Program-made: the position numbers and the translations under genes
Assembly (NCBI GenBank): GCA_009617715.1
Contig: VTFK01000493.1
Span: 124,001-188,000, forward strand
From: Plectrocnemia conspersa
Lineage: Eukaryota > Arthropoda > Insecta > Trichoptera > Polycentropodidae
Direction: 5' to 3'
Length of the DNA: 64,000 bases
Part shown: piece by piece, positions 17,892-60,291 of the stretch
Position numbering within the stretch: position 1 is the stretch's first letter
Layout: every line of letters begins with the position of its first letter
The notes under the pieces: generated by a model
Databases searched by the model: none
What the model saw: the letters and a program-made list of their open reading frames with translations, nothing else
Told to the model about the DNA's origin: nothing

Positions 17892-18808
17892 ACTACCCCG
17901 GACTCGAAAGCGAAGCGGCGCTCCACGGGCGCTCTCCCGAGGAGACCGCCGCCGCCCATGACCTGCTGTCTCTGGCGCAGAGCCTGCCACCCCTGGCCGC
18001 ACCGGGAGTGCTGGCCATATTGCAACCGGCCGCCGGACCACCGCCCACCGCCTCGTGCCTCTACGTAGTCTCGTCGCTGCAGCCTCGCACCCCTTGCGAG
18101 TACTCCTCCGACGCCGAAAACAACAACCCCAACTCTATCAGGCAGCAGGAGGACTGGCAAGAAGACCAGACGACCAGCGACGCCACCCCCAACGACTCAG
18201 AGTCTTCTGCGACCTACACCTACGACACCCTGTCCGTGACGGACGGGCGGTCCAAAAACAAAACCAGAAGAAGCAGCACCAGGAAGTGGAGTTCCGACGA
18301 AGTGTCCAACAGCGGTGACAGCGAGTCGTCCACCAGATCCGGGAGGTACGCCTGCGGGGAGTGCGGCAAGAGGTACGCGACGTCAAGCAATCTGTCGAGA
18401 CACAAGCAGACTCACAGGAGCTTGGACTCTCTGGCCGCTAAGAAATGCATGACCTGCGGAAAGGCCTACGTGTCTATGCCTGCTTTGGCCATGCACGTCC
18501 TTACCCACAAACTGTCGCACGTCTGCGGCATTTGCGGGAAGCTCTTCTCCAGGCCTTGGCTGCTCCAAGGGCATCTCAGATCTCACACCGGAGAGAAGCC
18601 TTACGGATGCGCGCACTGCGGGAAGGCCTTCGCGGACAGGTCCAATCTAAGGGCGCACATGCAGACTCACTCCCACGACAAAAACTTCGAGTGCTCCAGA
18701 TGTCACAAGTCGTTCGCGCTCAAGAGCTACCTCAACAAGCACTTGGAGTCCGCGTGTCTCAAAGACGGCTCGCCCGACGAAGACACCGTGGACATTGAGG
18801 TCACATAA
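17892..18808 (+). CDS. scrt: scratch, terminal coding exon (five C2H2 zinc fingers, Snail superfamily)
   Basis: Scratch proteins are nuclear, DNA-binding repressors of the Snail superfamily; in animals studied they act in neural differentiation at CAGGTG-type E-boxes. The exon starts after TATACTTTCAG with a split codon and encodes about 305 residues to a TAA at 18,806. A low-complexity N-terminal part rich in Ser, Pro and Ala is followed by five fingers: YACGECGKRYATSSNLSRH, then KCMTCGKAYVSMPALAMH, HVCGICGKLFSRPWLLQGH, YGCAHCGKAFADRSNLRAH, and FECSRCHKSFALKSYLNKH, which ends in Cys (C2HC). The TGEKP linker sits between fingers 3 and 4. The wording KAYVSMPALAMHVLTHKLSH separates Scratch from Snail and Slug. 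G+C is far higher than in the flanks. The upstream exon carrying the SNAG repression domain is not in view. Frames on the other strand over this exon are shadows. Confidence 0.95.
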
Positions 18809-30584: not shown

Positions 30585-36206
<5,622 letters not shown>

Positions 36207-37330: not shown

Positions 37331-38885
37331 CAGTAATTCAGCTACAAAACTGAAAATATGGTTACAAAATATATATATTCATTCGCCTCGATAGAAAAAC
37401 GTTAAAAAATATTAGAACACCGCTAACGCATTTTTCTAATATTCATCTTCGGCTACAGATCGCATCTGAGAAAATCTGACCTCACAATCTTTATTTTTAT
37501 ATTTTTGCTAATTTATTGAAATCTGACTGACTGACTATTCAACATGTATGTTTCTTTAGTTTATTAATGAAATATTATTAGTTAGATTGTTAAGAATATC
37601 GGCCCATGCTGAGAAACGCAGAACAAAGAATATATAGAAGCGCCGTTAATGGTGCAAAACAAATTACGTTGAAGTCATAACTTTGTCCACTGACGTCAGA
37701 CGGCCTTGTCACGCCGTGTCCGACGAATCTTCACATTATTTTTTTCAAAATTCGCCCGTGTATTAAATATTATGGGGTGCTGTTCAGTTATAGGGTGTAA
37801 AACAAGTTCGTATATTCCCGCAAACAAAATCATCTACAGCAGTGAACATCACGCTATCCACTTTTTTTCCAAAACACACATACGCTTGACTCACACAATC
37901 ATATTTTAGGAGTTGACAACCAATTACTGTAATAATACATATATTTTATTTTGTGTGAAATAGACCGAAATATTAATTTTATAGCCTTATATGATATTAA
38001 GAATTTAAGCATAATATTATTCTAAAGGTCCAAAATTTCTAGCTCCAGTTCTTTTGTCTACATTTTAACAAGCTCCACAATGTATGCACCTATTTCCATT
38101 ATATTTATTTTGCAAGTAAAAGAATTGATAAAATAGGAAACCATTGTCTCAATGATAATAAGCTGCTGAAATCTCTTTTCTAGAAATTTCTTCAAAGTGA
38201 TTAACAAATAATGATACGTTGAATTCACAGCTACCTGCTATTTCCTTTATATTTTGTAAACGCACGAAAGACTTCATCTGCAGATATGATATCTACAAAA
38301 CCAGTTTTGATTTAAATAAGCTTACAGAGCCTATTATGCTAGAAACACTTTTTTCCTTTCCTCACAACTCCAAAAATTCACTTTTCCCAATTTTCCAATT
38401 CAGAAAACCCAAATGCACCAGCCACAAGTCAGTTGGTATATCAAAATTTTCATTTTTGGCGTTAATATATATTTTTTTTTTTCAAATCACAGAATTAGAG
38501 GTATTATATCGTTATATTCGAAAACCCATTAATTGATGCACTCCAATAAAGTGTCATCAAATGTCAGTGCCATATTCTGACTAATGCGATCGATAATATC
38601 TTCTTCACTTTCAGTCTTATTTTCTTTCATTTCTGGTTGAATGAGATTGAAAATAATATCCTTCGTCACTCATTATTTACAAACCTGGATCACATGAATC
38701 ATATTTTAATCAGTCCTCAATTTTTTTCTCTATCAACATTAGCTCACATAGTTAAATATTTCACTTGAATCCATAAAATCACTTTCTACATTTGATAGAA
38801 TTTTCCTCCACGATCGAAAACAATACATGATTTTATTCTTGTGACTTGGCTCTAGCACGTACGAATGTATGTATGTGTGTAAAAA
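37331..38885. other. Non-coding stretch with a dispersed repeat
   Basis: Apart from the repeat at 37,706-37,975 there is no supported gene. Short minus-strand protein-like pieces (for example IKTGFVDIISADEVFRAFTK near 38,270) suggest more decayed transposon ORF, but I cannot name it. Confidence 0.35.
37706..37975 (+). repeat. Dispersed repeat with THAP-like start, related to the insert in locus B intron 7
   Basis: A plus-strand frame includes MGCCSVIGCKTSS, which looks like the first Cys pair of a THAP zinc finger, then loses any further match. From about 37,830 to 37,975 the sequence matches, in reverse complement, 57,195-57,345: shared words include CATCACGCTATCCACTTTT, CACAATCATATT and GGAGTTGACAACCA. 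The two copies are therefore the same repeat family. Protein identity is tentative. Confidence 0.45.
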
Positions 38886-41280: not shown

Positions 41281-42109
41281 CTGCAATAAGTTTTGGAAGT
41301 CGCAAAGTTTTGAAATTAAAACATTTATTTTTGTTAAAAATCTATTTATTTTCAACAGCAAATAAAAAAATATAAGCATAAAATATAAGAAAAAAATATC
41401 ATCTAAATATCGTAATATGATTTATCATAAAATGTCTAGTGATATGGTAACATATAGTTATAAGGAATGTGTCAAGAACACTTGCATATTCATAACATAT
41501 AATTAGGAAATATTTTCAGACTCATACTCCTAATTTACTGCCGTAATCTTGAAATCTTACCACAATAAAAATTATCATTAAAACGTCATTTGACAACATT
41601 TTAATACCTGGTTTTAAAATAACCGACTAGTTTATTGACAATTTTAGGTATAAAAGCTTATAATATTATCACCAAGTGATGGCTTAGTTTAAAATTATCC
41701 ACTATTTAAAAGTGTGAACTATAGGAAAAAAAATAGTTTAATTAACATACAATTTTTAACTTAGCTTTTATTGAATAATTCAAACTAAAGCAGTCATGTT
41801 TATACAATTAATGTGAATAAAATTCAGTCAATTTCTTTGGAGATGGCAAGTTACTTGAATTATAAAGAATGTTTTTTTTAGGAATTACACCCATTATTAT
41901 ATAGAATTTGGAACAGTTTTTAGCTGCCAATAAATTTAAATTTAGTGAATATTAACTAATTAATAATATATTTATTACATACAAACGCATGTAATAATAA
42001 AGTTAAAGAAAAAACGTAAAAATACTAATAACTAATGAATGATTAACGATACATAAAATAGCAAAAAAATTTCTTCAACGTCTTTTTTATTTATGGTTTG
42101 CTTCTTTAA

Positions 42110-42349
42110 CCCTTTGGATGCTAGTGTTTTTAAAATTTTCTCTTTTTCATATATTTATCGGTTCTTACTATACATTATTATGATTAAATATATTTAAAAA
42201 CTGTTTTATGCCTCTATCATACTAAGGGAGTAAAAGTTAACAAATCAATTTACTTTTTTCGACTATCGACACGTCAAGATGCAATATTTGTTAATATTTA
42301 TTTTACATAATTACGCACAACGATATATCGTTGTTTAGCATCCAAAGGG
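42110..42349. mobile_element. TTAA-flanked MITE (piggyBac type) in copy A
   Basis: Perfect 14-bp terminal repeats CCCTTTGGATGCTA and TAGCATCCAAAGGG are flanked by TTAA at 42,106-42,109 and 42,350-42,353. The 240-bp element has no ORF. The corresponding site of copy B, near 55,400, lacks it, so it inserted after the duplication or was lost from B. Confidence 0.9.
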
Positions 42350-42646
42350 TTAAACGGCTGATGTACCCATTTCGATTGTTATTAATTTTTTGTCAATGGT
42401 AAAATATTAGGCGACATCTGTCATGACACAAAACCTAGTATTAAAAGTTAAAATTTCGTGTTAAACTTTTAAGTGTTTCAAAGAAAGGTGCTACAGAGTA
42501 ATCAGTACTTGCATCTCCCAATGCTACTCTCTAAAGAAATATAATAACTATCAAGATTGAGATCAAGAAAATAAAAAAAAAAAATGAGATTTAGAACCCA
42601 CTTAAAAATAAAAATAGAATTACCGCTGGTATACAGTTTTTAACCT

Positions 42647-44720
42647 CTATTCAATTAAAATTACATCGTCATCTTCGCTGTCATCTTCGTCGTCCTCGTC
42701 CTCGTTTTTGTCATCGACCTCATCGTCGTTTAATTCATCGACCTCATCGTCGTTTTTTTCGCCGACCTGGTCGTCGACCTCGTAGTCGACCTGGTCGTCG
42801 ACCTCGTAGTAGACCTGGTCGTCGACCTCGTCGTCGACCTCGTCGTCGACCTCGTCGTCGACCTCGTCGTCGACTTCGTCGTCGTCCTGACCGTCGACTT
42901 CGTCGTCGTCCTGACCATCGACCTTATTGTTTTTATCTTCGTCCTGGTCGTCTTCGTCTTCGTCGTCTTCGTCGTCATCTTCGTCATCTTCGTCGTCATC
43001 ATCATCTTCGTCGCTATCGTCGACATAATTTTCGTCATCACCTTCGTTGTAATTATCGTCGCTATCATCATCGTCGTCATCTTCGTTTGCATTATTGAAC
43101 ATGACTGGGACATTTGGTGTATCTTTCCAGTGAAGAATCGATTGGTAATACTGGATGACTAGATGCGGCCAGCGCTTTCTAGCCTGCTCAGATGTCACTA
43201 GCTTCAAATTAACGGAATTGCGGCACTTCATGATGAATTCTAATCTGCCAAAATGTTTACGTACATTCAAGATCTTCAACGGATGTATAACTTCATACCA
43301 CCAGTGTTTGGCTTCTTCCTCCTTGATTTTAATTTTGTTATATTTATCTTCTTGCGAGAGTTCAGTCTTTACTGTTGAAACGTAATTGAAAAATTAGCGG
43401 GAGCGCAAACGCAAGAGACGATAGAAATTCTACTCACTCGGTACTAACTGACTCGCAGCATTTTGAAACTTCCCTCCGAATATCGGAAGGTCGGCAGCGG
43501 TGAGAGGACCCTTCTCCATCTTTACTTCAGGCTCTTCCATTTTAACGGATTCTAGTTTTACATCTGCAACATATGAAAAGTAAATGGAACATTAGTTGGA
43601 TTTCAAACGAAAGAGAGAATACAAATTTTACTGACCCGGTTTATTGGCAAACTTTCCCCCGAATATCGGAAGGTCGGCAGCAGTGAGAGGACCTTTCTCC
43701 GACTTTATTTCAAAGGGTCCGCATTTTACCTCTGCAGCGAACGTAACACATGAAACGTAAATGGAACATTAGGTGGACTTCAAATGCAAGAGGGAAAATA
43801 TATATATATATATATCTACTCACTGGCTGAATGCATCTCACGAGGTTCACGTTTGGGAATTTTGGGGAACAAATATAACCCCGTCCTTGAAAAAAAAAGC
43901 CATCATTGATTTCATCCCTAGTCAGATAACGGCCGGTAACTTTATCCTTCTCTACTATCCAAGCGCTGGCAGAGGTGAGTGGCACATTCCTCCAAGTGGA
44001 GATAGGGAGGTCCGCATACTCCTTCTTAAGCCCTCCAGTAGAGGTGCTCACTTCTTCCATCGGAGTGCCAGCAGAAGTACTCGTTTTCTCCATACAAGTA
44101 GTGGCATAAATGCTCGCCTCCTCCTTCTGAGTGCCGGTAGAGGAGCAATCTTCCTCCATCTGAGAACCCGTAGAGGTACTTGCCTGCTCCATCCGAATAC
44201 CATCAGAGGTGCTCACCTCCTCCATCGGGGTGCCAGCAGAGGTACTCGCTTTCTCCATACAAATAGCGGCAGAGATGCTCGCCTCCTCCTTCGGAGTGCC
44301 CTTTTCCACCTGAGAGCCGGCAGAAGTGCAATCTTCCTCCATCTGAGAACCCGTAGAAGTACTCGCCTGCTCCATCCGAATACCGGCAGAGGTGCTCACC
44401 TCCTCCATCGGAGTGCCAGCAGAGGCACTCGCTTTCTCCATACAAATGGCGACAGAGGTGCTCGCCTCCTCTTTCTGAGTGCCAGCAGAGGAGCAGCCCT
44501 CCTCCACCTGAGAGCCGACAAAGGTGCAATCTTCCTCCATCGGAGTGCCGGCAGAGGTACTTGCTTTCTCCATACAAATACCAGCAACGGTGCTCTCCTC
44601 CTCCTTCCGAGTGCCGGCGGAGAAGCAGCCCTCCTCCACCTGAGAGCCGGCAGAGGTGCAATCTTCATCCATCTGAGAGCCCACAGAGGTTCCCTCTTCC
44701 ATCTGTAGATCCATATCCAT
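42647..44720 (-). CDS. Locus A: chromoshadow-domain protein with 11-residue repeats and acidic tail
   Basis: Not a named gene I recognise. Exons on the minus strand: 44,720-43,824; 43,729-43,636; 43,563-43,438; 43,371-42,647 (TAG). The joined frame is 613 residues. Residues 8 to about 240 are some 20 units of 11 residues, such as STSAGTPMEEV. Exons 2 and 3 each carry a module with PLTAADLPIFGGKF. Exon 4 has a chromoshadow-like segment at about 398-454: KILNVRKHFGRLEFIMK, then LVTSEQARKRWPHLVIQYYQ and ILHW, with the spacing of HP1 chromoshadow domains (KIL..GRL.F, V..A, P.LVI.(Y/F)Y, L.W). A tail of about 140 residues is mostly Asp and Glu with VDDE repeats. In HP1 this domain dimerises and binds PxVxL peptides, so a nuclear chromatin role is likely. 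No chromodomain is seen. The exon 1/2 join keeps frame only if the second AG of GCAGAG is used. Confidence 0.75.
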
Positions 44721-44800
44721 TTTGAAGGAAACGGTCGCCCAACAGCTAGAAAACTAGCAAAAGTTAAAACTTCGATTGTGTTGCCAAAAAATGAAATAAG

Positions 44801-46017
44801 ATTTAAATAAATTCAGGGGTGGTATGAACTGACATCTCACTCGCCGATACCATTGAATTTAGCATGTATTTGTGCTCTATTGGCTTCAAAGAGACATCAT
44901 AGATACATATTGTTCGGTGTGATAATGCAATTGAGAAAAACTAACCAGTGGTCATTACCAGGCTTACACTTGGGCTCAGTTCCTTACGTAAGCGAAAGAG
45001 ATAACTAAGGTTGCTTTGAGGTAAATTCGAACAAAATGTCCAAATTTATGAAGAATTTGTTGCTGTAGAGCAAGAACAACGACCGACAGTGCCCAAAATA
45101 GTCGATAGCAAACTTAATTAGAACATTCAGTTTTAAAAACTTAAGAAAATGATATTGTTCAAGCCAGGTAATAATCTTGACAAAAACATCTTACTTGTTA
45201 TTTTACGTAAAAGCAGACTAAGAATAATTTAAATAAGTATATAACGACGATAATTCCAAATGGGTTAAATAGTAATAAATAATAATAATTGTATTAAATA
45301 GTAAATAATAGTACTAAGAATATAAGATTTTTTTAAATGTCCAAGAATGTGTCTATTTTATTAATGCTCATTACTTTTATAAAAATATATTGAAGATAAT
45401 ATTAATAACTGTAACTAGATGTAGCGAATTGTTTCATAAGCAAGTCGTGAGGGATTAATTCAGAACTAATATAATGCAACAATAACATGGTACAAGCTGA
45501 TATTAAAGAGCTTCTAAGTAAACCGTCGTCACTTTTTATATGCACAAATAACAACACTACAAATTCAACATCAGACGAATGGTACTATAGTAGGCATGTC
45601 GCACAAAATAAATCAACAACTAAATATATAGGAGCAACGTTTTAAATTACAATAATAATGCTGCAATAGATATGAACAATATAATCGTTATGTAATCAAT
45701 AAATTTCAATTTATAAAACAAAGCTTTGTTGTTAGATGAAGTGCAAACGGCTTACACCAACATCTCGCAGAGTTGGAAGCGTTTTCGAAACATATAACTA
45801 ATATCTGAAATGCACAGCAAAAACAAAAATTCTTTATTTCATGATAAATGCTGCAACGCATATTGCTAATCGTGGAGCTGTATATTTAAACAATAACATA
45901 GAACAAAATGGATATTTATTTATTAAAAGTATTACTATCGTGACCTGACAGGTTAACCCAATGCATTACGATGGCCAAGAGTATAAAATATATTACAATT
46001 TTCAAATACATATATAC
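44801..46017. other. Upstream region of locus A
   Basis: No gene is visible. A LINE-like tail (minus strand TTGGCCATCGTAATGCATTG) lies at 45,955-45,975. The region next to 44,720 should hold the promoter and 5' UTR of locus A; nothing in it is distinctive. Confidence 0.4.
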
Positions 46018-46170
46018 CAGGCGCGTACGGTGAGATACATTCCCTTTCGCGAGTTACGTGACGAGAGCGAGTGAGAAGAAGTGGGTGTGCGGAACGCATG
46101 TAACGCACACCCTTATCTCTCATTCACTCTCGTCAGAATGAAAGGAAATGTATCTCACCATACGCGCCTG
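46018..46170. mobile_element. Foldback hAT-type MITE with 8-bp target duplication
   Basis: ATATATAC at 46,010-46,017 and 46,171-46,178 flank a 153-bp element whose ends read CAGGCGCGTACGGTGAGATA and, inverted, CAGGCGCGTATGGTGAGATA. The inverted repeats extend far inward, with GAGAGCGAGTGAGA against TCTCATTCACTCTC, so most of the element folds back on itself. Confidence 0.9.
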
Positions 46171-46259
46171 ATATATACGTATACATATACGTACATATAC
46201 ACATATAAGTAAAAAAACGAAAACAAGATAAAAGAACAAACACAAATCACCTCAAAAGG

Positions 46260-46420
46260 TGTGCAGTGTCCCACACGAATTGAACCAAAACCCTGCATGT
46301 GCATTAGAAAATGTCAATATCTCGATGCACAATATTAAGCAGACGAACGGTCTTTGCCAGAGAAGAGTTGGCAAATGCTCCAGTTCTCGACTTTATAGGC
46401 AAGAACGAAAAAAAAATTTT
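46260..46420. repeat. Repeat shared with 59,200-59,310
   Basis: The wording AATATCTCGATGCACAATAT, TTTGCCAGA, AGTTGGCAAATGCTCCAG matches AATATTTCGAT, ATTGCCAGA, AGTTGGCAAGTGCTCCAA upstream of locus B. Either the segmental duplication extends this far or both copies belong to a LINE family. Confidence 0.6.
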
Positions 46421-46589
46421 TTGATCATGAAACAATTTTTTTTATGTTTTTAACCCTAGTGGAATTTATACGTACTACGCATAGTTCTTAACATATCACA
46501 AAAAAATGACTAAATTAACATAAAAAATAAGATTTTTTTTATATGATCTTCAAATTGCGAAAAATTCTTTCACAAAGGATTAACAAAAG

Positions 46590-47085
46590 TTAAGACATCA
46601 TCGACATATTCATAATAAAAGGAATACCAATAAGTTACATAAACGTAGATATGTGCATGGACCCTACCTCTGATCATTCCCCGGTAATAATGTCATTAAG
46701 TGATACAATGATTACTAAAGACCCCGTTTCCACTATTACCAACAAAAAGGACGAATCGGGATAGATACAAAGATCACCCGGAAGGCTTCATTGTGCTTAA
46801 TGTACCACTGAAAACTAAAGAACTTGAAAATGACTGAAATTTGTTCGTCAACCAACTACAACATTCAAGAATTACAAAACAAAATTATGGAGAAAAACTA
46901 TTTTCTAGAAATTAAAACTGTACTTAATAGAAAACCATTCAAAAGATAAAGAATCTCCAAGTTTATTAATAAAGTAACGCCAAAACAGGTTGAGGAAATT
47001 AAACTTCTAAACTCGAAGAACGTGCCTGATACGGATCTCATAACTGTCCAGATGCTCAAAGAAATGCCATACAAATGAAAACATC
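46590..47085 (+). mobile_element. Jockey-like LINE remnant (endonuclease end and linker)
   Basis: The plus strand reads DIFIIKGIPISYINVDMCMD then PTSDHSPVIMSLS, the C-terminal part of the apurinic endonuclease domain with its SDH motif, and after a gap PKQVEEIKLLNSKNVPDTDL followed by MLKEMP, the linker before reverse transcriptase. Frameshifts and stops are present; the reverse transcriptase itself is absent. Confidence 0.7.
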
Positions 47086-47230
47086 GCGTTCAGATTAAAT
47101 TAAATTAAGACCATCGTAACAGGTTACCTAAATGCATCACAATAGTAAAAATAAAATACATTATATTATAACAATAAACAAAAAATAATACATAGTAAGA
47201 AAGAAAAAAATCATAAGATACTGATATTAA

Positions 47231-48241
47231 CCATTTGAGTGCCAAGGAGCGCGATCACGATCGCGTTGAGAGAATGCATGTTTCGACATGTTACGTCAGT
47301 ATTTATTGAGTTCTTGCGTGCCTCTAGTTTTTTAGGTAAAAATATATTTAGCTACTGATATATATGGCTTTACACTTTAATTTGAATCTACAATAATGGA
47401 AATAAACAATTAAAATATACGTTATTCATAGCCCAAGAAAGATAACAATATGAGTTCAACGACCGAAAAATTTGAAAGTGAAGACGATTCGCTGTACTGA
47501 TTTTGCGAGAATTGATGATAGTATTCTGGAATATGAAACTAATGATAGTTCCATTGTTACTATTCAAAACAAGCCCAGAGTTTTTAATCTCATCGAAAGT
47601 TCAGAAAGCGAAGAAATTGACACAAATACAACTTTCGGAATAAAATTTCCCTTATGCTCATATAATTTATAAAATAAACGTGGGTAGTAAATGTATGCTA
47701 CGTCTTTAATTTACATCCAAGCATAATTGAAAAAATTGAGTAGGAATGGTTAGAAATAGAAAATCAACCACATATTTCAATTACGAATGTTACCTCAACA
47801 GATTTAAGAGGGTTGGAAAAATTACCGGGTCTAAATTTAAGAAGATGTACTGTGTTCAGTTCCCAAAATGGAGGACCTATAAAAAGATCAAACCTAATTT
47901 GTGTCAGATGTAAGAAAGGTGTACATGGAATATTTGTAGGACAGCATAAATGTGAAGAATAAGTAAAATAAACTTTGTACTATGACGAAAATATTATATT
48001 TTTATTTACAAAAAATGTTTGCAGATGCAGCCTTCTATATGAATGTTTAAGAAGTAATAAGAAAAATTGTAATATATAAAGGAAAGATGTTAAATTTATA
48101 GTTCAACTTTGTTATTTTATTATTGAAATCCATATATTATTTTTTAAAAAAGTTTTTGATTTTTTTTTACATCCCTCTTTTTAACTAAGAAATTGTTGGC
48201 AATTATGACATAGTATGAAAAAATGAATGGCACTCAAATGG
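47231..48241 (+). mobile_element. Internally deleted piggyBac-like element
   Basis: TTAA at 47,227-47,230 and 48,242-48,245 flanks terminal repeats CCATTTGAGTGCCA in both orientations. The interior keeps two ends of a transposase: an acidic N-terminus with PRVFNLIESSESEEID and a C-terminal Cys-rich finger reading LICVRCKKGVHGIFVGQHKC, just before a stop near 47,961. The catalytic middle is missing. It is a longer relative of the element at 31,010-31,496. Confidence 0.88.
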
Positions 48242-48245
48242 TTAA

Positions 48246-48449
48246 ATAATACAAACCAAACCAGCTCCTCGCAGCTGACATTAAATAATGCAATGTCAGC
48301 GTATTAAGGAGCCAGATGTCAACAGCCATAGGCGAGACGGCTAGTGCGGATGTCGAACTGGCTTTAACGGGCATTAGAAAAGTATCCGATCGTAATTCTC
48401 GAAAACATTCCAGACCCCAAAATTGGAAATCCTCGATCATAGTTTGATT
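48246..48449. other. Unassigned sequence of balanced composition, left part
   Basis: This and 48,928-50,040 form one block split by a hAT insertion. It could be decayed retrotransposon or an untranslated region; I recognise nothing in it. Confidence 0.3.
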
Positions 48450-48457
48450 GTCTACAG

Positions 48458-48919
48458 CAGGGGTGGCCAACCCACGGCGCCCATGCAGCCCCGCCTTTTT
48501 TCCGGCCCGTGAGATTAATCACTTTTACAAAATATATTAATTTTATAATGGCCAAAATGGTGAAAACCAATGTTTTATAAAAAATACATTATTTGTGCAT
48601 TCGTATATTCAAAAATTAACTGTCAAAATTATGAGAAAAAATTAACTTTGGTTTTAAAATAATATTCTTGCGAATATGTGAGATATATATTTCTTTACAA
48701 TGTACATTTAGTAACATTATTATTATATTATCTATGTTTATATGTAAGAATAATAGTAAACACAATAATAACTCATTATGTTTCAATTTTTCACTCTAAA
48801 AAAATGTCTATTGTGTATCTAAATCTAACATAGGGATATATAATTTTATATGTGACCTGCGGAGTTATGATGCATTTCCATTTATGATCCATTTCCATCA
48901 TTTGGGTTGGCCACCCTTG
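48458..48919. mobile_element. Non-autonomous hAT element with perfect 8-bp target duplication
   Basis: GTCTACAG at 48,450-48,457 and 48,920-48,927 flanks ends CAGGGGTGGCCAACCCACGG and, inverted, CAAGGGTGGCCAACCCAAA. The 462-bp interior is A+T-rich without a transposase. Confidence 0.92.
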
Positions 48920-48927
48920 GTCTACAG

Positions 48928-50040
48928 TATCCTTCAGTTTCCCTCCCCTTCCCCTATCCATTTCCGTCTCCATAAAAGATAGAGATGCCGGAGACAATCA
49001 GTAGCTAAATTGCAAGTCAACCCGAACGCGGTCGTCACTCAGACGATCAAGGAAGGAGGCCTAGCCTAACGTCTAGAGGTACAGACGCGAAAGCTAGGCT
49101 GGGTAATATCCGGTCGCCCATAAAATGAAAATCCCGAGCCTAATGCGACCGTGAGGACGTGGGCCCATTAAAAAAAAATATCCTTTAGTAGCTTAAAAAA
49201 CTACTTAATGACATACAACTCTGAAATAACTCAGCGAATCCTATCCCTACCCTCCTAAAAGGAAGGCGCTGGAATACATAAATGGATAATAACCTATAAC
49301 GACCCAGATACAACGTCCGTCCGAAGACGCAGCAGACCCGAAAATGAAGTCCCACTAAGACTTGCACTCGGACTAAGCAGCGTTATACAATGACTCCGTA
49401 TCACTGCTACTGTCTCCAACGCATAGAGTGGGGTACCTTTGCGCATTCGACTGGAAATATAAGACGGTGTCAAAAGCTCACATACACATTCGACTTGACT
49501 ACACCTAGACGCTCGGATCACATCTTCGTTAAACGGTCTCCTTAGAACTCGTATTTACACCTCGCCTCCTGTCTGAGCAACCATCCCCAGGACACGCGCT
49601 CGAGGATAAATATCGACGACTAGTCGAAGGGTTTAGCTATGACAACAAGGTTCACCGTTAAACACGTCAAGAATACTACTGGAAGGTTACATAAGGGTTA
49701 CTTTGTACAGTTCGCTGTACAAACGTCCTATTATAAATCGTCAACCGGCGCTGCTGAAAACGTTAAATAAAAACGTTAAGTAAACGACAATCCACGACCT
49801 GACTGATTCAAACCAAATATCCTAAGGTATCTCAAGAAACTTTTCTCAACTTTTTCGATTAAGAGGGAGTATTTAGTTACTCGGAGATTCTAAATTATCG
49901 ATTCCGATTCAAGAATACTCCAAGCTAAATCCTAACAGAGCAAATGCATCTTAACAATTTTAACCTTTTCCAGTCCTATGTCAAATGTCATTCCACATTG
50001 GACGTCAATGTCATTCGACATTGTGTGAGTTTCAGTATAA
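48928..50040. other. Unassigned sequence of balanced composition, right part
   Basis: No gene recognised. Open frames up to 75 codons on the minus strand have no family pattern. The contrast in composition with the A+T-rich neighbours suggests an old retrotransposon or a regulatory block. Confidence 0.3.
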
Positions 50041-50089
50041 TTCTATACACCACTTTCAACCCGTTACCGGACAGTTGTAGTGAACGCGG

Positions 50090-50559
50090 CCGGCAACAAC
50101 CAGGCCTTCAGTATCGGGCCGGCGCCGGGTGGATTCATCCGGCACGCCTGAAATGGTAAGTACTAGCCCATACAACACCACCCACACTATATGGCACCGG
50201 CCTAGTGCCGGGTGAATCCATCCGGCACGTGTGAAGCTACACTTAGGCTGGTTTCACACGTGCCGGACGAATTCATCCGGCGCCGGCTCGACCCTGCCCA
50301 TACAACACCACCCCCACTACACAGCGCTGTCTCGGTGCCGGGCAAATCCATCCGGCACGGGTGAAACCGGCCTTGGTGTAGTTTCACACGTGCCGGATGG
50401 ATTTGCCCGGCACCGGGCCGGCGCCGTGTAGTGGAGGTGGTGTTGTAGGAACAGCGTCGGGCCGGCGCCGGATGGATTCGTCCGGCACGTCTGAAACGGT
50501 AGGTACTAACCCATACAACAGCATCCCCACTACATGGCGCCGGCACGTGTGAACCGGCC
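50090..50559. repeat. G+C-rich nested foldback cluster
   Basis: The core GTGCCGGATGGATTTGCCCG and close variants occur at least seven times in alternating orientation, along with GGTTTCACACGTGCCGG and CCATACAACACCACCCCCAC. Units of about 130-180 bp appear to be MITEs inserted next to or inside each other; one runs roughly 50,246-50,377 with ends GGCTGGTTTCACACG and, inverted, AAGGCCGGTTTCACCCG. Open frames here, up to 153 codons, arise only because stop codons are scarce in the repeat. Confidence 0.75.
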
Positions 50560-50563
50560 TTAA

Positions 50564-50729
50564 TGCTCGGCCACACAAAGCGGTCTGTCGCGGCGGGAAG
50601 CGATATCTGATCGACGCGATCAGGCGGTCTTGTTGTATGATGATGCGATGTTGCATCATACAACCAGACCGCCGACCGCGTCCGTCAGATATCGCTTCCC
50701 GCCGCGACAGACCGCTGTGTGACCGAGCC
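50564..50729. mobile_element. Foldback MITE flanked by TTAA
   Basis: TTAA at 50,560-50,563 and 50,730-50,733. Left end TGCTCGGCCACAC; right end, inverted, GGCTCGGTCACAC. These continue into long arms sharing GCGGTCTGTCGCGGCGGGAA and AGCGATATCTGA; the inner part also pairs (GGCGGTCT with AGACCGCC). Almost the whole 166 bp is a hairpin. Confidence 0.9.
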
Positions 50730-50733
50730 TTAA

Positions 50734-51690
50734 CTCTTATAATTCCGTCTATGGCGCTTCAAATTCGGCACTTGGTCCATATGGAAGCAATCCGATCAAA
50801 AGGTCGCCGGTTTTGCCATGAATGAAACAACATTTTCAAGCTCGAATTCCGTTATCGCTAAGCACCGGACTTGGAATCGCCGGATAATGGAGGGCAGTCA
50901 AAACAATTACCTCACTCCTCTTCGTAAGTACGTCGCCCCGATGAAGAAAATGAGTGGCACTTTCTCAAAAACAGGTGAGGATTACGTTTAAAGCATCAGA
51001 AAACACGTTTTATATGGATTATAATCGTTAAAACTGCGACGAACGCGCAGTATTACCTGTGAGCCGGGGACCGGACGCGGGCTGTGTGATAGGTCCTAAG
51101 AGATCAATCAAACGACCATTACAATATTTTATTTCAACAAAACGTTTAATAATATTTAATTACTCAATAGCACTTTAATATAACTAAAATTGGATAATAA
51201 AAAACATTATGATTGGTAAGAATATAAAATATGATAAAAAAATATAAAATAATATATTTATACTGCTTTTCGAAAATTAAAATGTCTGAAGTTAACACTC
51301 ACGTCAGCATAAGTATGTTTTTAAGATAAAAACTGTGCTTACTACATATTCTTTTTTCAATGATTTAAATAGTGGTTTAATGTTTAAAGACACGAAAATA
51401 TTACATTAAGACCATTTTATAACTACATTTTAAAAATATTACATTTTATACATACATCTAAGGCTATTTTATAACCATGTATTTTACACTCACTATATTT
51501 TTACATAAAAAAATATTCTGTACATTGGTTTAAAACACTACGTTGGCTAAGTTAAAGAAAACCACAAAAAAAGAGTATGAACGTCGAATAATTATCAAAA
51601 CTCATTAAATTGCAAGTTGTTACATATATGTATGTATGTTTAAATATGATATTGAATCGAATATCCTTAAATATTTTTCGGTTACAAAAA
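50734..51690. other. Non-coding stretch with splice-donor-like motifs
   Basis: No gene seen. CTTCGTAAGTACG near 50,927 is a good donor-like motif in a G+C-richer patch, but no exon context supports it. From 51,100 on it is A+T-rich. Confidence 0.35.
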
Positions 51691-51697
51691 TATATAC

Positions 51698-52060
51698 AGG
51701 AAGTCCCCGTTCAACGCGGGGGATATGTTCTGGACATGATCGCGTTAAGGGAAATTTCGCGATCAACGGGGGATTTTTGAAAAAAAAACATTGTAAAATT
51801 CTTAAAACACTTTATTTATTAAATAAATATTAATAATAACAAAAAGGCATATATTTCCATCGGGAAGAAGAGTTAGACGGTCCTTGGATGCCAGAAGCAT
51901 CCATTTAAATCCAGAAACGGTATTCCCATCTATGGAAATAAACGTACGTGTTGGCATTCGTTTCCAATAAAGTCCAGTCTCATACACATTAACAATTAAA
52001 TTGATGCTTAAAAGGGTTGTGATTGTACTTTAATTATAACCGCAACTTTTTTAAGCATAA
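51698..52060 (-). mobile_element. Tigger/pogo-like transposon remnant
   Basis: The plus-strand end CAGGAAGTCCCCGTTCAACG resembles Tigger-type terminal repeats. The minus strand encodes YETGLYWKRMPTRTF and LLASKDRLTLLPDGN, matching the DETGL, WK..P.RT and SKDRLT motifs of the CENP-B/Tigger DDE domain, where the catalytic Asp position here reads Tyr. Only this small part of the transposase survives. Confidence 0.75.
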
Positions 52061-52064
52061 TATC

Positions 52065-52440
52065 AACGGTGAAGCTGGTTTTAAAAAATGGAAAAATAAT
52101 TAAATTTTGGCGGCGCAAAGGTAATATAGTCGTGACGTATGGTGCGGCGGCGCAGGCTTTGCTTGTAGGGCTCCAGGGGCGCGTGTAGGGTTTTATGAGG
52201 CGCAGCCTCCAGCGACGCTCGGCGTGCTTCGCTCCAAGCGGTATGGAACAACGTAGACCCGGGCAGCGCGGTGAAGCTGGTTTTAAAAAAATGGAAAAAA
52301 ATAATTAAATTTTGGGGGCGCGAGCAGAACGCGCATGTACAGGAGTGGATTGGGGGCCACATGGTGCGTCAGTGCAGCAGGGAGTGGATTGGGGGCCACA
52401 TGGTGCGTCACAGAGCGTGCGCATTGGGACATGCATTAGA
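52065..52440. repeat. Direct repeats in a G+C-rich block
   Basis: GGTGAAGCTGGTTTTAAAAA followed by ATGGAAAAA and ATAATTAAATTTTGG occurs at about 52,069 and again at about 52,270. Separately, GAGTGGATTGGGGGCCACAT followed by GGTGCGTCA occurs at 52,341 and 52,382, 41 bp apart. The host sequence is unidentified and G+C-rich. Confidence 0.8.
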
Positions 52441-52805
52441 GGCTCCAAGTCGCGGGGCCTCGTCCTGCTTGGTCGAGCTTGGTTTACGATGGCACTTGGG
52501 TGGCTTCTCGCTGGAAGCGTGTTGCGGCGCCGGGTAGTTCCTAGGTCACGTGGTCGGCGTCGGCGGTTATCGATGGGGGCCTGTTAGGGATCGCAGGCCC
52601 CTCGTCTCGGTGATCTTCCAGCTCGAGTACAAATCCAAAAAAGCTCCGGCGGGATGGCGGTAAGCGGCTCAGCGACTCATTTTGTGTATCTAAAATTTTA
52701 ATTAAAAAAAACTACGTTCAGCTAAGGTCACATTTACTGAGGTTGTCAACATAATTTGTAATGCAATTAATAAGTTTAAGTATGTAGGGGGCCCATTTAT
52801 ATATA
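52441..52805. other. G+C-rich to A+T-rich non-coding stretch
   Basis: Nothing recognised. Open frames near 52,440-52,590 show no family pattern. Confidence 0.4.
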
Positions 52806-53218
52806 CAGGGGTACCTCGGTATACGTCCACTTTGGAATAGGTCCAACTTGGTATACGTCCTGTTTGGACGAGGAACATTTTGCTTGGTATAAGACATTCG
52901 TTTGGAATACGACCCGCGTGCGTGCTAAACATTTTATGAGTCAAAAAGACACATCGCGCATGCGCAACTTGTATGAGTTACAACACCGCGCGAAAAATAC
53001 GTTTGGTATACGTCCTATTTGGTATAAGTCCAAGGATCTGGAACGGATTAAGGACTTATACCGAGGCAGTGACGTAGCCAGAATTTTGTCAAGAAAAAGG
53101 CAAGGTAATTTTTGTAATTTATATTTAATCAACATAAAATCACTGGCCGTGCTCCGTCAAGGGGGTGGTTCAGACCCCCCCCCCCTCTTCACTAAGCCAC
53201 TTTACCGAGGTACCACTG
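52806..53218. mobile_element. Tigger-type MITE with TA target duplication
   Basis: Ends CAGGGGTACCTCGGTA and, inverted, CAGTGGTACCTCGGTA, flanked by TA at 52,804-52,805 and 53,219-53,220. Subterminal TTTGGTATACGTCC-type words repeat in the left third. A 139-codon frame through the element reflects those subrepeats, not a gene. Confidence 0.85.
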
Positions 53219-53221
53219 TAT

Positions 53222-53800
53222 TTATATTTACAGGATTGCAAAAATGGACAAAACTTGGCAGAACTCTGGTAATAATGGCGTGACGGACACTTTCTCTTGG
53301 CGACTTTGGCGGACTCACGACGGCCGGTTGCGAGTCCGGCCTGCTTCCTAGTTCACCGAACATAATAATATTCTTGTCGTCTGATGTCGTCATATTAACA
53401 GCTAAGTTGCGGTTGCCTTTTTGTTTGTATGGAGTTTTAGTCTGTTTCTGTATGTCGTGTATTTGTTCGTTATTTCGTCTTTTATTGATTCTATGTTAAC
53501 GTCATTAGAAACATACCAGGAAGCGTCAACTATCATTCGTAACACCTTGGTTTGGAATCTCTGGATGATGGCGATGGTGGAAGCACAGGCCCCAAAGTTG
53601 AATCTCGTATGTCCATACTGATGTGTACATTCATATCTTGTTTTCCAGTGTCTTCTGTGATATTCTTTCCATCATCCAATGAATTTTCCGAAGTTGAATT
53701 CCAAGTTGTTTACGTTTTACTAAAAATATGTTTCCGCCATGTTTCTTCTGTTCAAATATACTCTCAGGTATTTGACCTATTTCTTATGTTGTAATATTTT
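53222..53800 (-). mobile_element. Jockey-like LINE remnant (reverse transcriptase C-terminal part and 3' tail)
   Basis: The minus strand from about 53,795 reads KYLRVYLNRRN, then QLGIQLRKIHWMM across a shift, then YEIQLWG, IAIIQRFQTKVLRMIVDASW and YVSNDVNIESIKDEI, all standard for the region after the jockey reverse transcriptase. The 3' tail at 53,222-53,350 shares wording such as ACCAGAGT.CT..CAAGTTTTG with the jockey copy at 27.3 kb. Confidence 0.8.
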
Positions 53801-53830
53801 ACCATTTAGCGACACATTCGAGCATGTATG

Positions 53831-53867
53831 TTTAATCAATGTGAACGTAACGTTCACATTGATTAAA
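53831..53867. repeat. Perfect 37-bp palindrome
   Basis: Arms TTTAATCAATGTGAACGT and its exact reverse complement are separated by a single A. It is an isolated structure next to the jockey remnant. Confidence 0.95.
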
Positions 53868-54564
53868 AATACCTGTTGATTTCTTCGTATTTGCTTCAAT
53901 TCTCAAATTTTTCATCCATTGTGTATCAATGGTTTATCTGGAGGTTTCTTAACGTTTTCAATAGGTCCTGATGAGAAGCGATCACAGCTGCATTGCCCGC
54001 AAATGTCGCTATTGTTGCTGAACCTGCCTCTGGGAGATCAGCTGTATATATTAGGTAGAGGCTAAAAATTAATAAAACAATATTATATATAGTTAATAAT
54101 TTAATTCAGCAATGATCCAAGGCTTTAGTTGAATTATTTGCCTATCAGAAACCAGCATTTGTTTGCAATATGTATATAATACAATACAAAATTCCAATAC
54201 ATAAATAGAAATCAAAATGCAAATATTGTAAATTAAATGTAACAGTGTAAGTATAAACATGTTATATATATATATATCAATTGACAAAAATATTCTTTAT
54301 ATCCGAGATCGTTGTGACTGCCAACAGCGTATTCCGTCCCAACTTTTGACTACCCAACTTAACCTAAAGCTCAACACAACGACGTTGACAGTATTGTTAC
54401 TTTACGAGACAGCTTACATTCAATCAAATGTTGCAGTTTATATCTAAAAATGTGTCAATCTGTATTTTATATTTTTTCAATCCCCAAATTTTCCTTATTT
54501 TCTTATCGCCATTTATTCCCACCGTGCCACTGCTTCTAATAATCTAATGTAGAAAAAATCAATA
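53868..54564. other. Non-coding stretch
   Basis: I see no supported gene or element. Confidence 0.5.
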
Positions 54565-55533
54565 ATGGGTTTTGGAAGTCGTAAGGTTTTGAAATTAAAA
54601 TGTACATATTTGTTTAAAATCTATTTATTTTTCCATCATAAATGAAAAATATTTATTAACTGATTTAAAATCAAAAAATAAATTCTACAAAAATTATAAA
54701 ACGTTTTATCTTACTAAAACACTTACATATTCATAATATATAATAGGAAATATTTTTAAAAACACTATCACATACATAATCTTATTGTTTAATATAATAT
54801 AAATCAATGTAAAATGTTATTTTAATAGTTGGTTTTAAAATAGATTACTTACTTATTAATAATTTTAGGTTGACTACATTTTTGGAACCATTTGTAACTT
54901 TCAAGGTTTAGACAAAATCAAATTTAAAATCAGGTTAACTCGCCCACCATTTAAAAGTATAAAATTATAAAAAAAACTTGCTTATTACATAATTTTTAGC
55001 TAAACGTGTTTACTTTATGAATTTAACCCATTCCTGATATACAACGTTATACCGTTGTTTGCGACAATATCAAATAAATGCTATTTATGTTGACATGATA
55101 TTGAAAAGCTAATAGAGTAAGATTTTGAAAAACACCAATGCAACCAGAGTTGAACAAAAATTAGATCAAAAATATTTTTTGAGATGTCATAGTTGCACAT
55201 AAATAGGTGCAATATTCCTTTTTAAGGAAATCACTCTTACGTTAATAATTAATAATCGATATATTACATATGAATGTATGTAAAAGTTAAGTTTAAAGAA
55301 CCACATAAAAAATACTAATATCTAACGAATTATTAACGATACATAAAAATAATATCAATAAAACAGAAAATAAATTTCTTTAAAATCTTTTTCATTTATG
55401 GTTTGCACATTTGAATGACTGATGTGTCCATTTTAATTGTTTTTTTTTTAAATATTATTAAAATTTTGTTAAAACTAAAATAGTAAGAACTTATACAAAT
55501 TATTTCCAATTGATTTCGATGGGGATCGTCAAG

Positions 55534-58500
55534 TTATGGTTCTTCTTCCCAAGAAGTAATAGATTGATAGTACTTAATGACTAACTGCGGCCAGTGCTTC
55601 TTAGCATATTCAGATGGCACTTGCTGCAACGACGGGGTGTTGTAACACTTAACGATGAATTCTACTACGCCATTTTTATTTTGGACGTCGACGATCTTTT
55701 CGGAATTAGCGACTCAAGACCCGACTCTTCCTTCTTGATTCTAAACTCTCGAAACTTGTTTTCAATATTTATAAATTCAGTCTTCACTGTTGAAACGTAA
55801 ATGAAACATTAGCAAAAGTTCAAATGTAAGAGACAATAGAAATTCTACTCACTCGGTACTAATTTCCCCTCTGCATTTTTAACAAGCTGTGGAAACTTTT
55901 GTAGGTTCCCCCTGAATAGCGGAAGGCTGGCATTGGTGAGAAGACTGTCCTCTAACTCTTCTTCTTTTATGGATTTACATACTATTTGTGCACCTGTACC
56001 TTCTGAAACGTGAACGGAACATTAGCGGTACTTCAAACATAAGAGACTATAGAAGTTCTACTCACTCGGTAATAACTGCCCCTCAGCATTCGTATCAAGC
56101 TGTGGGCATTTGACCAGTTCCCAGGATATCGGAAGGTTGGCAGCAATGATTGGATCATTTTCCAACTTTAGTTTGTGCTCTTTCTTTTCTATTAATTTAA
56201 ATTCTGTTTTTACATTTGTAAGGTCTGAACCATAAATGGAACATTAGCCGTACTTCAAACATAAGACTATAGAAATTCTACTCACTCGGTACTAATTTTC
56301 CCTCTGCATTCATATCGAGCTGTGGGCACTTGACTAGTTCCCAGGATATCGGAAGGTTGGCAGCAATGATAGGATCCTTTTCCAACTTTAGTTTGTGCTC
56401 TTCATTTTCTATTAATTTAAATTCTGTTTTTAAATTTGCAAGGTCTGAACCGTAAATAGACCACTAGAACATTGAACGTCAGTGTCCAATTTGTACACAC
56501 ATACATTCGCACGTGCTAGAGCCCAGTCAGAATAATAAAATCGTATAAGTCGCACGAAAATACAATTGCGCTGCAATAAAGGTTATTTTCGGGAAACTAC
56601 AGCGTATCGGCATAGTTTGGAGAGTTTAGAAGAGATCGTAAACTTTTCCACATATGATATTTTATTTAAAAAACGCAATTAAAAACATTTAAAAAATTCA
56701 TAAAATATTTTTGTTATATAGTGATATAAATAAATTATATACATATAATAGATACAAATTTACATACATAGAAAATATATTTACAAAAAAATTACATAGA
56801 AAATATACATATTTTAAAATACAATTAATTACAATTAAAAAAAATAATAAAAAAAAAAATTTCTGTTAAGTTGGAAGTCAGTTTTTTTTGGTTTCGTTCC
56901 AACAATATTATTACTTTCTAATGATGCAGAAGAAGATTGGTAGTTTATTTTAAATTTTTAAAAAGGCACTATGAAAACTAGTGAGTACCGAATCCAAAAA
57001 CAGTTTGCTGGTAACAGATACGTCAAAAATTCGTACTGCAATAATTTTGTAAATGCGTTGTCTACGTATGCAGATGTATCCGAGAGAGGAGCGATACATG
57101 CGCGTAAGAATATTAGTTGTCTCTCTTGTTCTTGTTGAAGTGGCAATGCTCATTTCAAGGATTTCGTCTGTGCTACATCCCCGGTTATAAAAAAACATAT
57201 CGGTCTATTTCGCACAAAATAAAATATATATAATATCACATTAACTGGTTGTCAACTCCTACAATATGATTGTGCGAGTAAATCGTATGTTTTTGGATGA
57301 AAAGTGGATAGCGTGATGACCACTGCTATAGAAGTACTACTCACTCGGTAATAACTGCCTCTCAGCATTCATATCGAGCTGTGGGCACTTGACCAGTTCC
57401 CAGGATATCGGAAGGTTGGCAGCAACGATTGGATCATTTTCCAACTTTAGTTTGTGCTCTTCCTTTTCTATTAATTTAAATTCTGTTTTTACATTTGCAA
57501 GGTCTGAACCGTAAATGGAACATTAGCAGTACTTCAAACGTAAAACTAGAAGTTCTACTCACTCGGTACTAACTGTCTCTCAGCATTCATATCGAACTGT
57601 GGGCACTTGACCAGTTCCCAGGATATCGGAAGGTTGGCAGCAATGATAGGATCCTTTTCCAACTTTAGTTTGTGCTCTTCCTTTTCTATGAATTTAAATT
57701 CAGTTTTTACATCGGCAAGGTCTGAACCATAAATGGAACATTAGTAGTACTTCAAACATAAGAGACTATAGAAGTTCTACTCACTCAGTATTAACGACCC
57801 CTCAGCATTCATATAGAGCGGTGGGCACTTGACCAGTTCCCAGGATATTGGAAGGTTAGCAGCAATGACAGGATCCTTTTCTGATTTTAATTTGTGCTCT
57901 TCCTTTTCTATGTTTTTAAATTCTGTTTTAACATCTGCAAGGGCTGAACCGTAAATGGAACATTAGCGGTACTTCAAACATAAGAAACTATAGAAGTTCT
58001 ACTCACTCGGTATTAACTGCCCCTCAGCATTCATATCGAGCGGTGGGCACTTGACCAGTTCCCAGGATATCGGAAGGTTGGCAGCAATGACAGGATCCTT
58101 CTCCGACTTTAGTTTGTGCTCTTCCTTTTCTATGAATTTAAATTATGATTTTACATCTGCAAGGTCTGAGCCGTAAATGGAATATTAGCAGTACTTCAAA
58201 CATAAGACTATAGAAGTTTTACTCACTCGGTACTAACTGCCCCTCAGCGTTCATATCGAGCTGTGGTGACTTTACTAGCTCCCAGAATTGCGGAAGGCCG
58301 GCAGCAGTGACAGGACCCTTTTCCAACTTTTTTTTCCCTGCTCTTCCTTTTCTGTCAATTTACATTCTGTTTTTTCATCTGCAACGTCTGAAACGTAAAT
58401 GGTACATTAGCAGTACTTCAAACACAAGCGACGATAGAAGTTCTACTCACTCGGTGCTAACTGCCCATCAGCATTAACATCGAGCTGTGGGGACTTGACT

Positions 58501-58790
58501 AGCTCCCATAATTGCGGAAGACCGGCAGCAGTGACAGGACCCTTTTCCAACTTTTTTCCCTGCTCTTCCTTTTCTATCAATTTACATTCTGTTTTTTCAT
58601 CTGAAACGTTTGAAACGTAAATGGCAAATTAGCGGTACTTCAAACACAAGAGACTACAGAAGTAGTTCTACTCACTTGGTACTAACTGACCCTCGGCATT
58701 TGTAACGAGATCTGGGCACTCGATGTTCCCTTCTAACATTTGACAGCCGGCAGAGGTGTTACCCTCCACCACCTGTGTATCTGTGTCCAT
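55534..58790 (-). pseudogene. Locus B: paralogue of locus A with an eight-fold exon array and a damaged chromoshadow exon
   Basis: Minus-strand exons: 58,790-58,676; 58,600-58,451; 58,378-58,227; 58,156-58,007; 57,934-57,785; 57,721-57,563; 57,503-57,345; 56,444-56,286; 56,224-56,066; 56,002-55,853; 55,786-55,665. All donors are GTGAGTAG and all internal exons are phase 1 at both ends. Exon 1 encodes MDTDTQVVEGNTSAGCQM. Exons 2-9 each encode about 50 residues like KLEKDPIIAANLPISWELVK. The last exon starts MKTEFINIENKF, as in locus A, but one base is missing near 55,700, so the frame ends at 55,665; the other frame continues as a chromoshadow-like segment (KIVDVQNKNGVVEFI to PQLVIKYYQ) to a TAA at 55,534. 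Exon 3 has two extra bases in its A-run and exon 4 an in-frame TAA at 58,143. Skipping exons 3 and 4 leaves 440 residues without the domain. Confidence 0.6.
56445..57344 (-). mobile_element. Insertion in intron 7 of locus B
   Basis: The other introns of the array are 59-75 nt, but this one is 900 nt. The inserted part shares its 57,195-57,345 end with the repeat at 37.8-37.98 kb and contains an unrecognised 82-codon frame (56,950-57,198) beginning MFFYNRGCSTDEILEM. AGTGGTC occurs near both edges (57,324-57,330 and 56,460-56,466 on the minus strand) and may be a target duplication. Confidence 0.5.
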
Positions 58791-58900
58791 TTTGAAGAAT
58801 AATGGCAGCCAAGGAGGTTTAACACTGACGCGCGACACTAACTGACAGCTAGAGACAACGGCGTAAAGTTAAAACGTTGATTGTGCTGCCAGCAAGAAAA

Positions 58901-60037
58901 AAAAATACGATCTTCGGTAATTTCCCTAAACGAAAAAGATTATATCTAGTTGCTTTTAATTTTTTCCGTGTGCTCTATATACAAACGTATTTAATTTCAC
59001 GCTAATTATATTTTTAACACAAACTGATAATATTAAGCATTAGTATATGACATAACATTTATTTATTTGATAAAATTAAGGCAGGTAAACCTAATTTGTC
59101 ACAATGGACAAAAATATATTAAAATAAAAAAATACCTACAAATGTATACTTATATACATATACGAATACATGCATACAAATACATATACGCTCACACACA
59201 TATGTGCACGAGAAAATATCAATATTTCGATTAACAATTTTGAGCAAAAGGATAGCCATTGCCAGAATAATTAGTTGGCAAGTGCTCCAATCATAGACTT
59301 CACAGACGAAAACAGTAAATACGACAGAAAAAACATAACTATGAATAACCGCGGGGGCGGAAAGTGTGAATTTACCAGATTTGTATTTAATACAGAATGA
59401 AAGCTGAAGAAAAACACGATTCGATTATTGAAATTGCCAACCGACCACCGGTAACCGGGCAACCGGGAAGCTGCAACATCATTAAATTTCAAGCTTAACA
59501 CTGCGACGTCACTGCTGAGTCTGTAGCAAAAGCTTTCTTCAAAATACCAAAAATTGAAGGTGGCAATTGGAGAGTGCTCCCCTAAAGTAACTCGCGAATA
59601 TAACGGAAATGATTGCAGACTACAGCTTGTATTGAGTTAAAACAGGTTTTTTTATATTTGAAAGCAATACTTATTTATTTGATCGCCGATATTGAAAAAA
59701 TATAATATAAAAAACTTTTTTAGGTTCAATTGATCCAGAATAGTGTTCAAGAATATCTATAAGCTTATTTTGTTGACTTATGGTTTCCATTTTTATACTT
59801 TAAAACATGTACGGCCTAATTGAATATATTGTACATTTAAACACAATTTAAAAAATAAAATACATAATAGTATTTATTTATTAAATTTATATTGGAGGTT
59901 TATATTATTTACGATATTCTATTTTGGTTGATATGTACTGTATTGAAAAAGTAGACGAATACTACCGAAAAAATATTTTTATTCTGATGCTGGATGAGAT
60001 AATTACAGATATAAAATCACGTTTAAAATCAGATACA
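58901..60037. other. Upstream region of locus B
   Basis: A repeat at 59,200-59,310 matches 46,260-46,420 upstream of locus A. Otherwise there is no supported gene or element. The promoter of locus B should lie just above 58,790. Confidence 0.4.
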
Positions 60038-60291
60038 ATTGAGCCCCTTATACACAATAACTAAAGATTAAAATATAAAATAATTATTTGTAAAATAAAT
60101 AATGTAAATATAAATAATTTTAAAATCAACAGTAAAATATATATTGTAAACAATAAAATTATCATGATAATTTTATTGTTTACAATATATATTTTACTTT
60201 TGATTTTTAAATTATTTATATTTACATTATATATTTTACAAATAGTTATTCTATGTTTTAATCTTTAGTTATTGCTTAAAAGGGGCTCAAT
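60038..60291. repeat. 254-bp near-perfect palindrome (foldback element)
   Basis: The block starts ATTGAGCCCCTT and ends AAGGGGCTCAAT, with the centre at 60,164/60,165 inside AAAATTATCATGATAATTTT. Arms of about 127 bp differ by a few mismatches and small indels. There is no spacer. No clear target duplication is seen. Confidence 0.92.

Follow-up and report, generated by a model that had tools for sequence, protein, structure and literature searches.

According to the available portions of Levine et al. (PMC3380853), a chromoshadow domain (CSD) alone suffices for membership of the HP1 gene family. The same portions describe testis or germline expression for lineage-restricted HP1s including Umbrea, report Umbrea at heterochromatin, and state that no two partial HP1s of Drosophila were seen to have a most recent ancestor in common. 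An interaction of Umbrea with HP1 is given by the title of a cited paper. Heterochromatin is thus accessible to a CSD-only protein. Umbrea itself descends from HP1B. As far as the accessible text of the literature found extends, the CSD-only HP1 genes described are fly genes, and a simple hymenopteran set of one full and two partial genes is claimed, as quoted in an excerpt of PMC7202025. The accessible passages of PMC3380853, PMC7062049 and PMC11272775 agree that the CSD dimer binds PxVxL peptides; the ligands named include CAF-1 and KAP1 (excerpt of PMC7062049) and, by an entry title, Shugoshin 1. Here we describe two related minus-strand loci, A and B, that encode CSDs in Plectrocnemia conspersa (Trichoptera; assembly GCA_009617715.1, contig VTFK01000493.1, positions 124,001 to 188,000 of the forward strand). 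This stretch of 64,000 nucleotides is called the window, and coordinates are given within it.

Both loci encode a chromoshadow domain, as judged by profile search, by sequence match to solved structures and, for locus A, by predicted fold. The two domains lie as follows.

43115..43276, minus strand: CSD of locus A, Pfam PF01393 (Chromo_shadow) at 36.4 bits, E 5e-9, with a fold match
55537-55698, minus strand: CSD of locus B, Pfam PF01393 (Chromo_shadow) at 41.1 bits, E 2e-10

Both scores exceed the Pfam cut-off of 22.4 bits, and when A was modelled as a single chain the best matches of its predicted fold were HP1 chromoshadow domains. The two domains are alike at 28 of 54 residues (51.9%), and the residues aligned to CBX1 Ile161, Tyr164 and Trp170, which we take to form the dimer interface and peptide groove, are identical in both. 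Judged by its CSD, A belongs to the HP1 gene family, in the CSD-only class. A chromodomain was sought with Pfam at E up to 10, a setting under which the HMMER filters still discard most matches above E 0.1. None was matched in A (residues 1-470 and all of exon 4) or in B, where the scan covered seven of eleven exons at least partly (1, 2, 6, 7, 8, 10 and the CSD part of 11). The N-terminal chromodomain of a full-length HP1 was thus found neither in A nor in the scanned pieces of B. An initial annotation, which had called the CSDs from their residue pattern and had reported the chromodomain missing, is borne out on both counts within this coverage, and the closing tryptophan that it read is correct for A and B alike. 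A degenerate chromodomain in the exon 1 tail of A or in B's repeated exon was considered and dropped for want of a Pfam match and, in the case of the tail, of a confident fold; the 73-residue non-repeat tail yields no confident model (predicted local distance difference test score 44.2 on one sequence), so a much degraded chromodomain could escape there. Three joined exons of B gave weak Pfam rows, all below cut-off (TLE_N 31.7 of 32 bits, RuBisCO_small 25.8 of 27, YscK 20.1 of 22), which were taken as summed repeats.

Locus A is predicted to be a four-exon gene with GT-AG introns, its ATG at 44720 and its stop at 42647.

43824..44720, minus strand: exon 1 (predicted), with the start codon and about 20 repeats of 11 residues (STSAGxxMEEx), followed by a tail of some 70 non-repeat residues that includes PNVNL
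43636..43729, minus strand: exon 2 (predicted), with GCAGAG as acceptor and GTCAGT as donor; PDVKL arises at its junction with exon 3
43438..43563, minus strand: exon 3 (predicted), which holds PEVKM and is related to the exon that recurs in locus B
42647..43371, minus strand: exon 4, with the chromoshadow domain, PNVPV, an acidic tail and the stop

In this predicted structure, the open frame comprises 613 codons without a lesion. The repeat of exon 1 is a 33-bp in-frame unit, laid out as 19 units plus one that is 15 bases short, so that the unit length and the sole loss within the repeats are both multiples of 3. In a neutral simulation that scored stops only, A remained open in 72 of 1000 copies at 0.05 substitutions per site and in 1 of 1000 at 0.1. 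The 158 residues that follow the CSD form an acidic tail (61% aspartate plus glutamate, net charge -92).

The same protein carries four PxVx[LMV] pentapeptides, all outside the CSD: PNVNL at residue 289, PDVKL at 330, PEVKM at 342 and PNVPV at 458. Methionine or valine is tolerated in place of the final leucine of PxVxL. Shuffling gave an expectation of 0.17 such motifs for residues 1-470, with 1 in 10000 shuffles reaching four, and 0.20 for residues 230-470, with 0 of 20000. Strict PxVxL occurs twice, against 0.055 expected over residues 1-470 (P 0.0012) or 0.094 over residues 230-470 (P 0.0038). No PxVx[LMV] motif was found in the two models of B that were read, both of which lack exons 3 and 4.

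The explanation we favour, with moderate confidence, is that A is a working CSD-only HP1 relative whose dimer binds PxVxL-type peptides, and that B is a tandem copy of the same origin that has since been damaged. From its fold and interface residues, the CSD of A would be expected to dimerise with itself or with host HP1, and the groove of the dimer would bind PxVxL-type peptides. Since A bears four such peptides, none of them within the CSD, and ends in a long acidic tail, it could link CSD dimers to one another or compete for HP1 partners, in either case without reading histone marks. Dimerisation, binding to HP1 or to self, and the chromatin location of A are all inferred. A more specific proposal is that A acts as a heterochromatin adaptor that docks onto its own kind: a dimer of HP1 origin would bind the PxVxL motifs of like molecules and polymerise, or close in cis, without histone reading. 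We give this proposal little credence; if it were true, the number and spacing of motifs, made by exon and microrepeat turnover, would tune assembly. A role for A in the germline or in transposon control, which the initial annotation had raised, would be borrowed by analogy from flies and finds no support here.

Several results weigh against the favoured explanation. Exon 2 of A requires the second of two adjacent acceptors, and PDVKL exists only given the predicted join of exons 2 and 3. Two of the four motifs lie 12 residues apart inside a short VKxE repeat, and the motif class was selected after the sequence had been seen. With a class picked post hoc, two members in a shared repeat and one lying across a predicted splice join, the motif count is a lead and not proof. 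Protein searches for homologues were also negative: words from residues 226-470 of A gave 2863 candidates with none at E up to 10, a further search gave 96 candidates with none at E 0.1, a search with the CSD alignment gave zero candidates, and a search for viral relatives gave 130 pattern matches, none of them confirmed. Finally, the exon 1 repeats show 14 synonymous changes against 11.2 expected, an excess that is not significant (P 0.21). This lack of homologues and of a significant sign of constraint, together with the repeat-rich, low-complexity content, is also what would be seen if both loci were decaying relics without present function and A were open by chance. We consider that very unlikely, because A is open over its whole length, its repeats have kept to multiples of 3 and its interface residues are retained. 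An origin of both genes from a transposon was also tried and rejected, since among nine other open frames of the window examined in Pfam the sole such match was a reverse transcriptase fragment 29 kb off (13257-14195, minus strand; RVT_1 E 2.9e-15), a LINE-like remnant.

The relationship between the loci was examined through the DNA around them. Matching blocks stand in the same order on both sides and the coding starts are alike, which indicates that A and B derive from one tandem duplication.

41284..46406, minus strand: collinear duplicated unit around locus A, matching blocks
54560..59313, minus strand: collinear duplicated unit around locus B, matching blocks

A further DNA match (45884-45927 with 59846-59885) was excluded from the unit since it breaks collinearity. 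Flank identity between A and B is 73-81%, in blocks that were selected for similarity, and it was therefore not used as a neutral clock. Each locus has expanded a different element since the duplication: A enlarged the 33-bp repeat of exon 1, which is present as one unit in B, and B enlarged an exon unit. We propose that a tandem segmental duplication would have produced B from the gene ancestral to both loci, and that B would then have amplified a phase-1 exon module and would afterwards have been damaged. Two elements lie near A: a short one in its 3' flank (42105-42354) with 19-nt perfect inverted ends, missing by eye at the corresponding site of B, and one upstream (46006-46182) with 43-nt inverted ends (91%).

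From its start at 58790, locus B continues through eleven exon-like blocks on the minus strand down to 55534.

58676..58790, minus strand: exon 1, with the start codon and a single 11-residue repeat unit
55853..58600, minus strand: exons 2-10, arrayed phase-1 exons that each encode about 50 residues
58387-58227, minus strand: exon 3, frameshifted where eight A stand in a row, as against six in exon 2
58165-58007, minus strand: exon 4, with an in-frame TAA produced by a base substitution
56445..57344, minus strand: intron 7, enlarged to 900 bases against 59-75 in the other introns
55534..55786, minus strand: terminal exon (exon 11), where the array frame hits a stop ahead of the CSD, which lies in a different frame (55713-55534)

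The inner exons are phase-1 and mostly of 159 bases, and the exon-plus-intron array has periods of 220 and 222 bp with 89% and 87% matches. Among exons 4-9 a stop codon is present in exon 4 only. Within the enlarged intron, 57183-57332 resembles a repeat at 37833-37986 (85%). When the terminal exon is entered through its better acceptor, TTTCAACAG, the frame differs from that of the CSD and runs into a stop. The alternative at 55712, with 6 pyrimidines among the 15 bases upstream, is weak; of 15 AG sites listed it is the sole phase-compatible one past the last stop in the CSD frame that keeps the whole domain, as acceptors at 55664 and 55661 would remove the first CSD strand. An intact coding sequence for a CSD-only protein is therefore predicted for A, while B is damaged and retains one weak splice route. 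Locus B is probably a pseudogene and at best the source of an exon-skipped isoform.

Such an isoform is central to one rival explanation, in which both loci are functional and form a true diverged CSD pair, with B yielding a protein of 462 residues from a transcript that leaves out exons 3 and 4 and enters the terminal exon through the acceptor at 55712. Skipping these exons does preserve phase, and the joined frame is then open over all 462 residues. The CSD of B is also free of stops, but at 0.326 substitutions per site 12-18% of neutral simulations stay open, so this point is merely suggestive. Distinct changes in exons 4-9 lean synonymous, with 16 synonymous (9.7 expected) and 24 nonsynonymous (P 0.024); counted per copy, the figures are 18 (12.8 expected) and 35 (P 0.073). 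However, an acceptor with 8 pyrimidines among 12 visible bases precedes the required one by 74 bases, B carries three separate lesions, and intron 7 has grown. Moreover, the pooled nonsynonymous difference of exons 4-9 (pN 0.079; synonymous pS 0.174) is close to the divergence of four introns (0.05-0.10), as expected without constraint. Overall, we judge a functional pair unlikely. Errors of assembly or sequencing, which would make B in reality an intact twin, are a somewhat more doubtful explanation still: the frameshift sits at a homopolymer run and arrays of 220-bp units are prone to misassembly, but in exon 4 the TAA results from a base substitution, and two gaps, of 10 bases and 3 bases, set the terminal exon apart from that of A. 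Past constraint on the two sequences has at best weak evidence in the substitution counts, and positive selection has none. Between the CSDs the nonsynonymous rate (dN) is 0.379 and the synonymous rate (dS) 0.652, and the ratio of 0.58 over 54 codons weakly suggests relaxed or fast change, yet lies below 1.

These results refine the initial annotation of a tandem pair of genes. A single tandem duplication and an A that is predicted to be intact both stand; because B is damaged by a frameshift, a stop and a CSD that cannot be read from the better acceptor, "pair of genes" overstates the case, in which one gene is good and its twin is probably a pseudogene. Its description of the sequence ahead of the CSD as repeat-built holds for exon 1 of A and the array of B, and its end points are exact, 42647 being the stop of A and 58790 the start ATG of B. 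The suggestion of young, fast-evolving genes draws weak support from the CSD ratio.

Elsewhere in the window, an open frame at 17810-18808 (plus strand) aligns to SNAI1 over residues 203-316 and encodes zinc fingers of the C2H2 type (Pfam E 1e-26); it presumably belongs to a gene of the Scratch/Snail family. A match to DHHC palmitoyltransferase at 31436-31774 (minus strand), below cut-off (17.4 of 28.7 bits), may be an exon. An element at 47227-48245 has 18-nt perfect inverted ends and parts related to 31006-31518, and long near-palindromes lie at 60038-60291 (93% self-complementary) and 50251-50497 (85%).

Compared with known systems, A is closest to Umbrea/HP6 and the other CSD-only, or partial, HP1s of Drosophila, with which it shares a CSD of HP1 type by profile and fold and the lack of a chromodomain match; the likeness to Umbrea/HP6 drawn in the initial annotation is fair at this level of architecture. 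Relative to Umbrea/HP6, whose own sequence was not compared, A has PxVxL-type motifs of its own, an array of 11-residue repeats and an extended acidic tail. With full HP1 proteins (HP1a/b, CBX1/3/5) it has the CSD fold and interface residues in common, but it differs in giving no chromodomain match and in an acidic tail far longer than that of HP1. With the ligands CAF-1, KAP1 and Shugoshin 1 it shares the CSD-binding pentapeptide, except that in A ligand and receptor are part of one protein. Our literature search, in the text accessible to it, found no CSD-only protein described with its own PxVxL motifs, which does not prove that none exists. Unlike the partial HP1s of Drosophila, A also has a related, damaged copy in tandem; a partial HP1 would here have yielded a further partial copy, a case that was not seen in the Drosophila survey (PMC3380853). 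The best reading is that A is a CSD-only HP1 relative of the Umbrea-like kind, made a variant by its own motifs, acidic tail, repeat array and tandem partial copy. A CSD-only HP1 that bears the ligand of its own domain would offer a simple way to test at the bench whether relatives of HP1 can assemble without chromatin marks.
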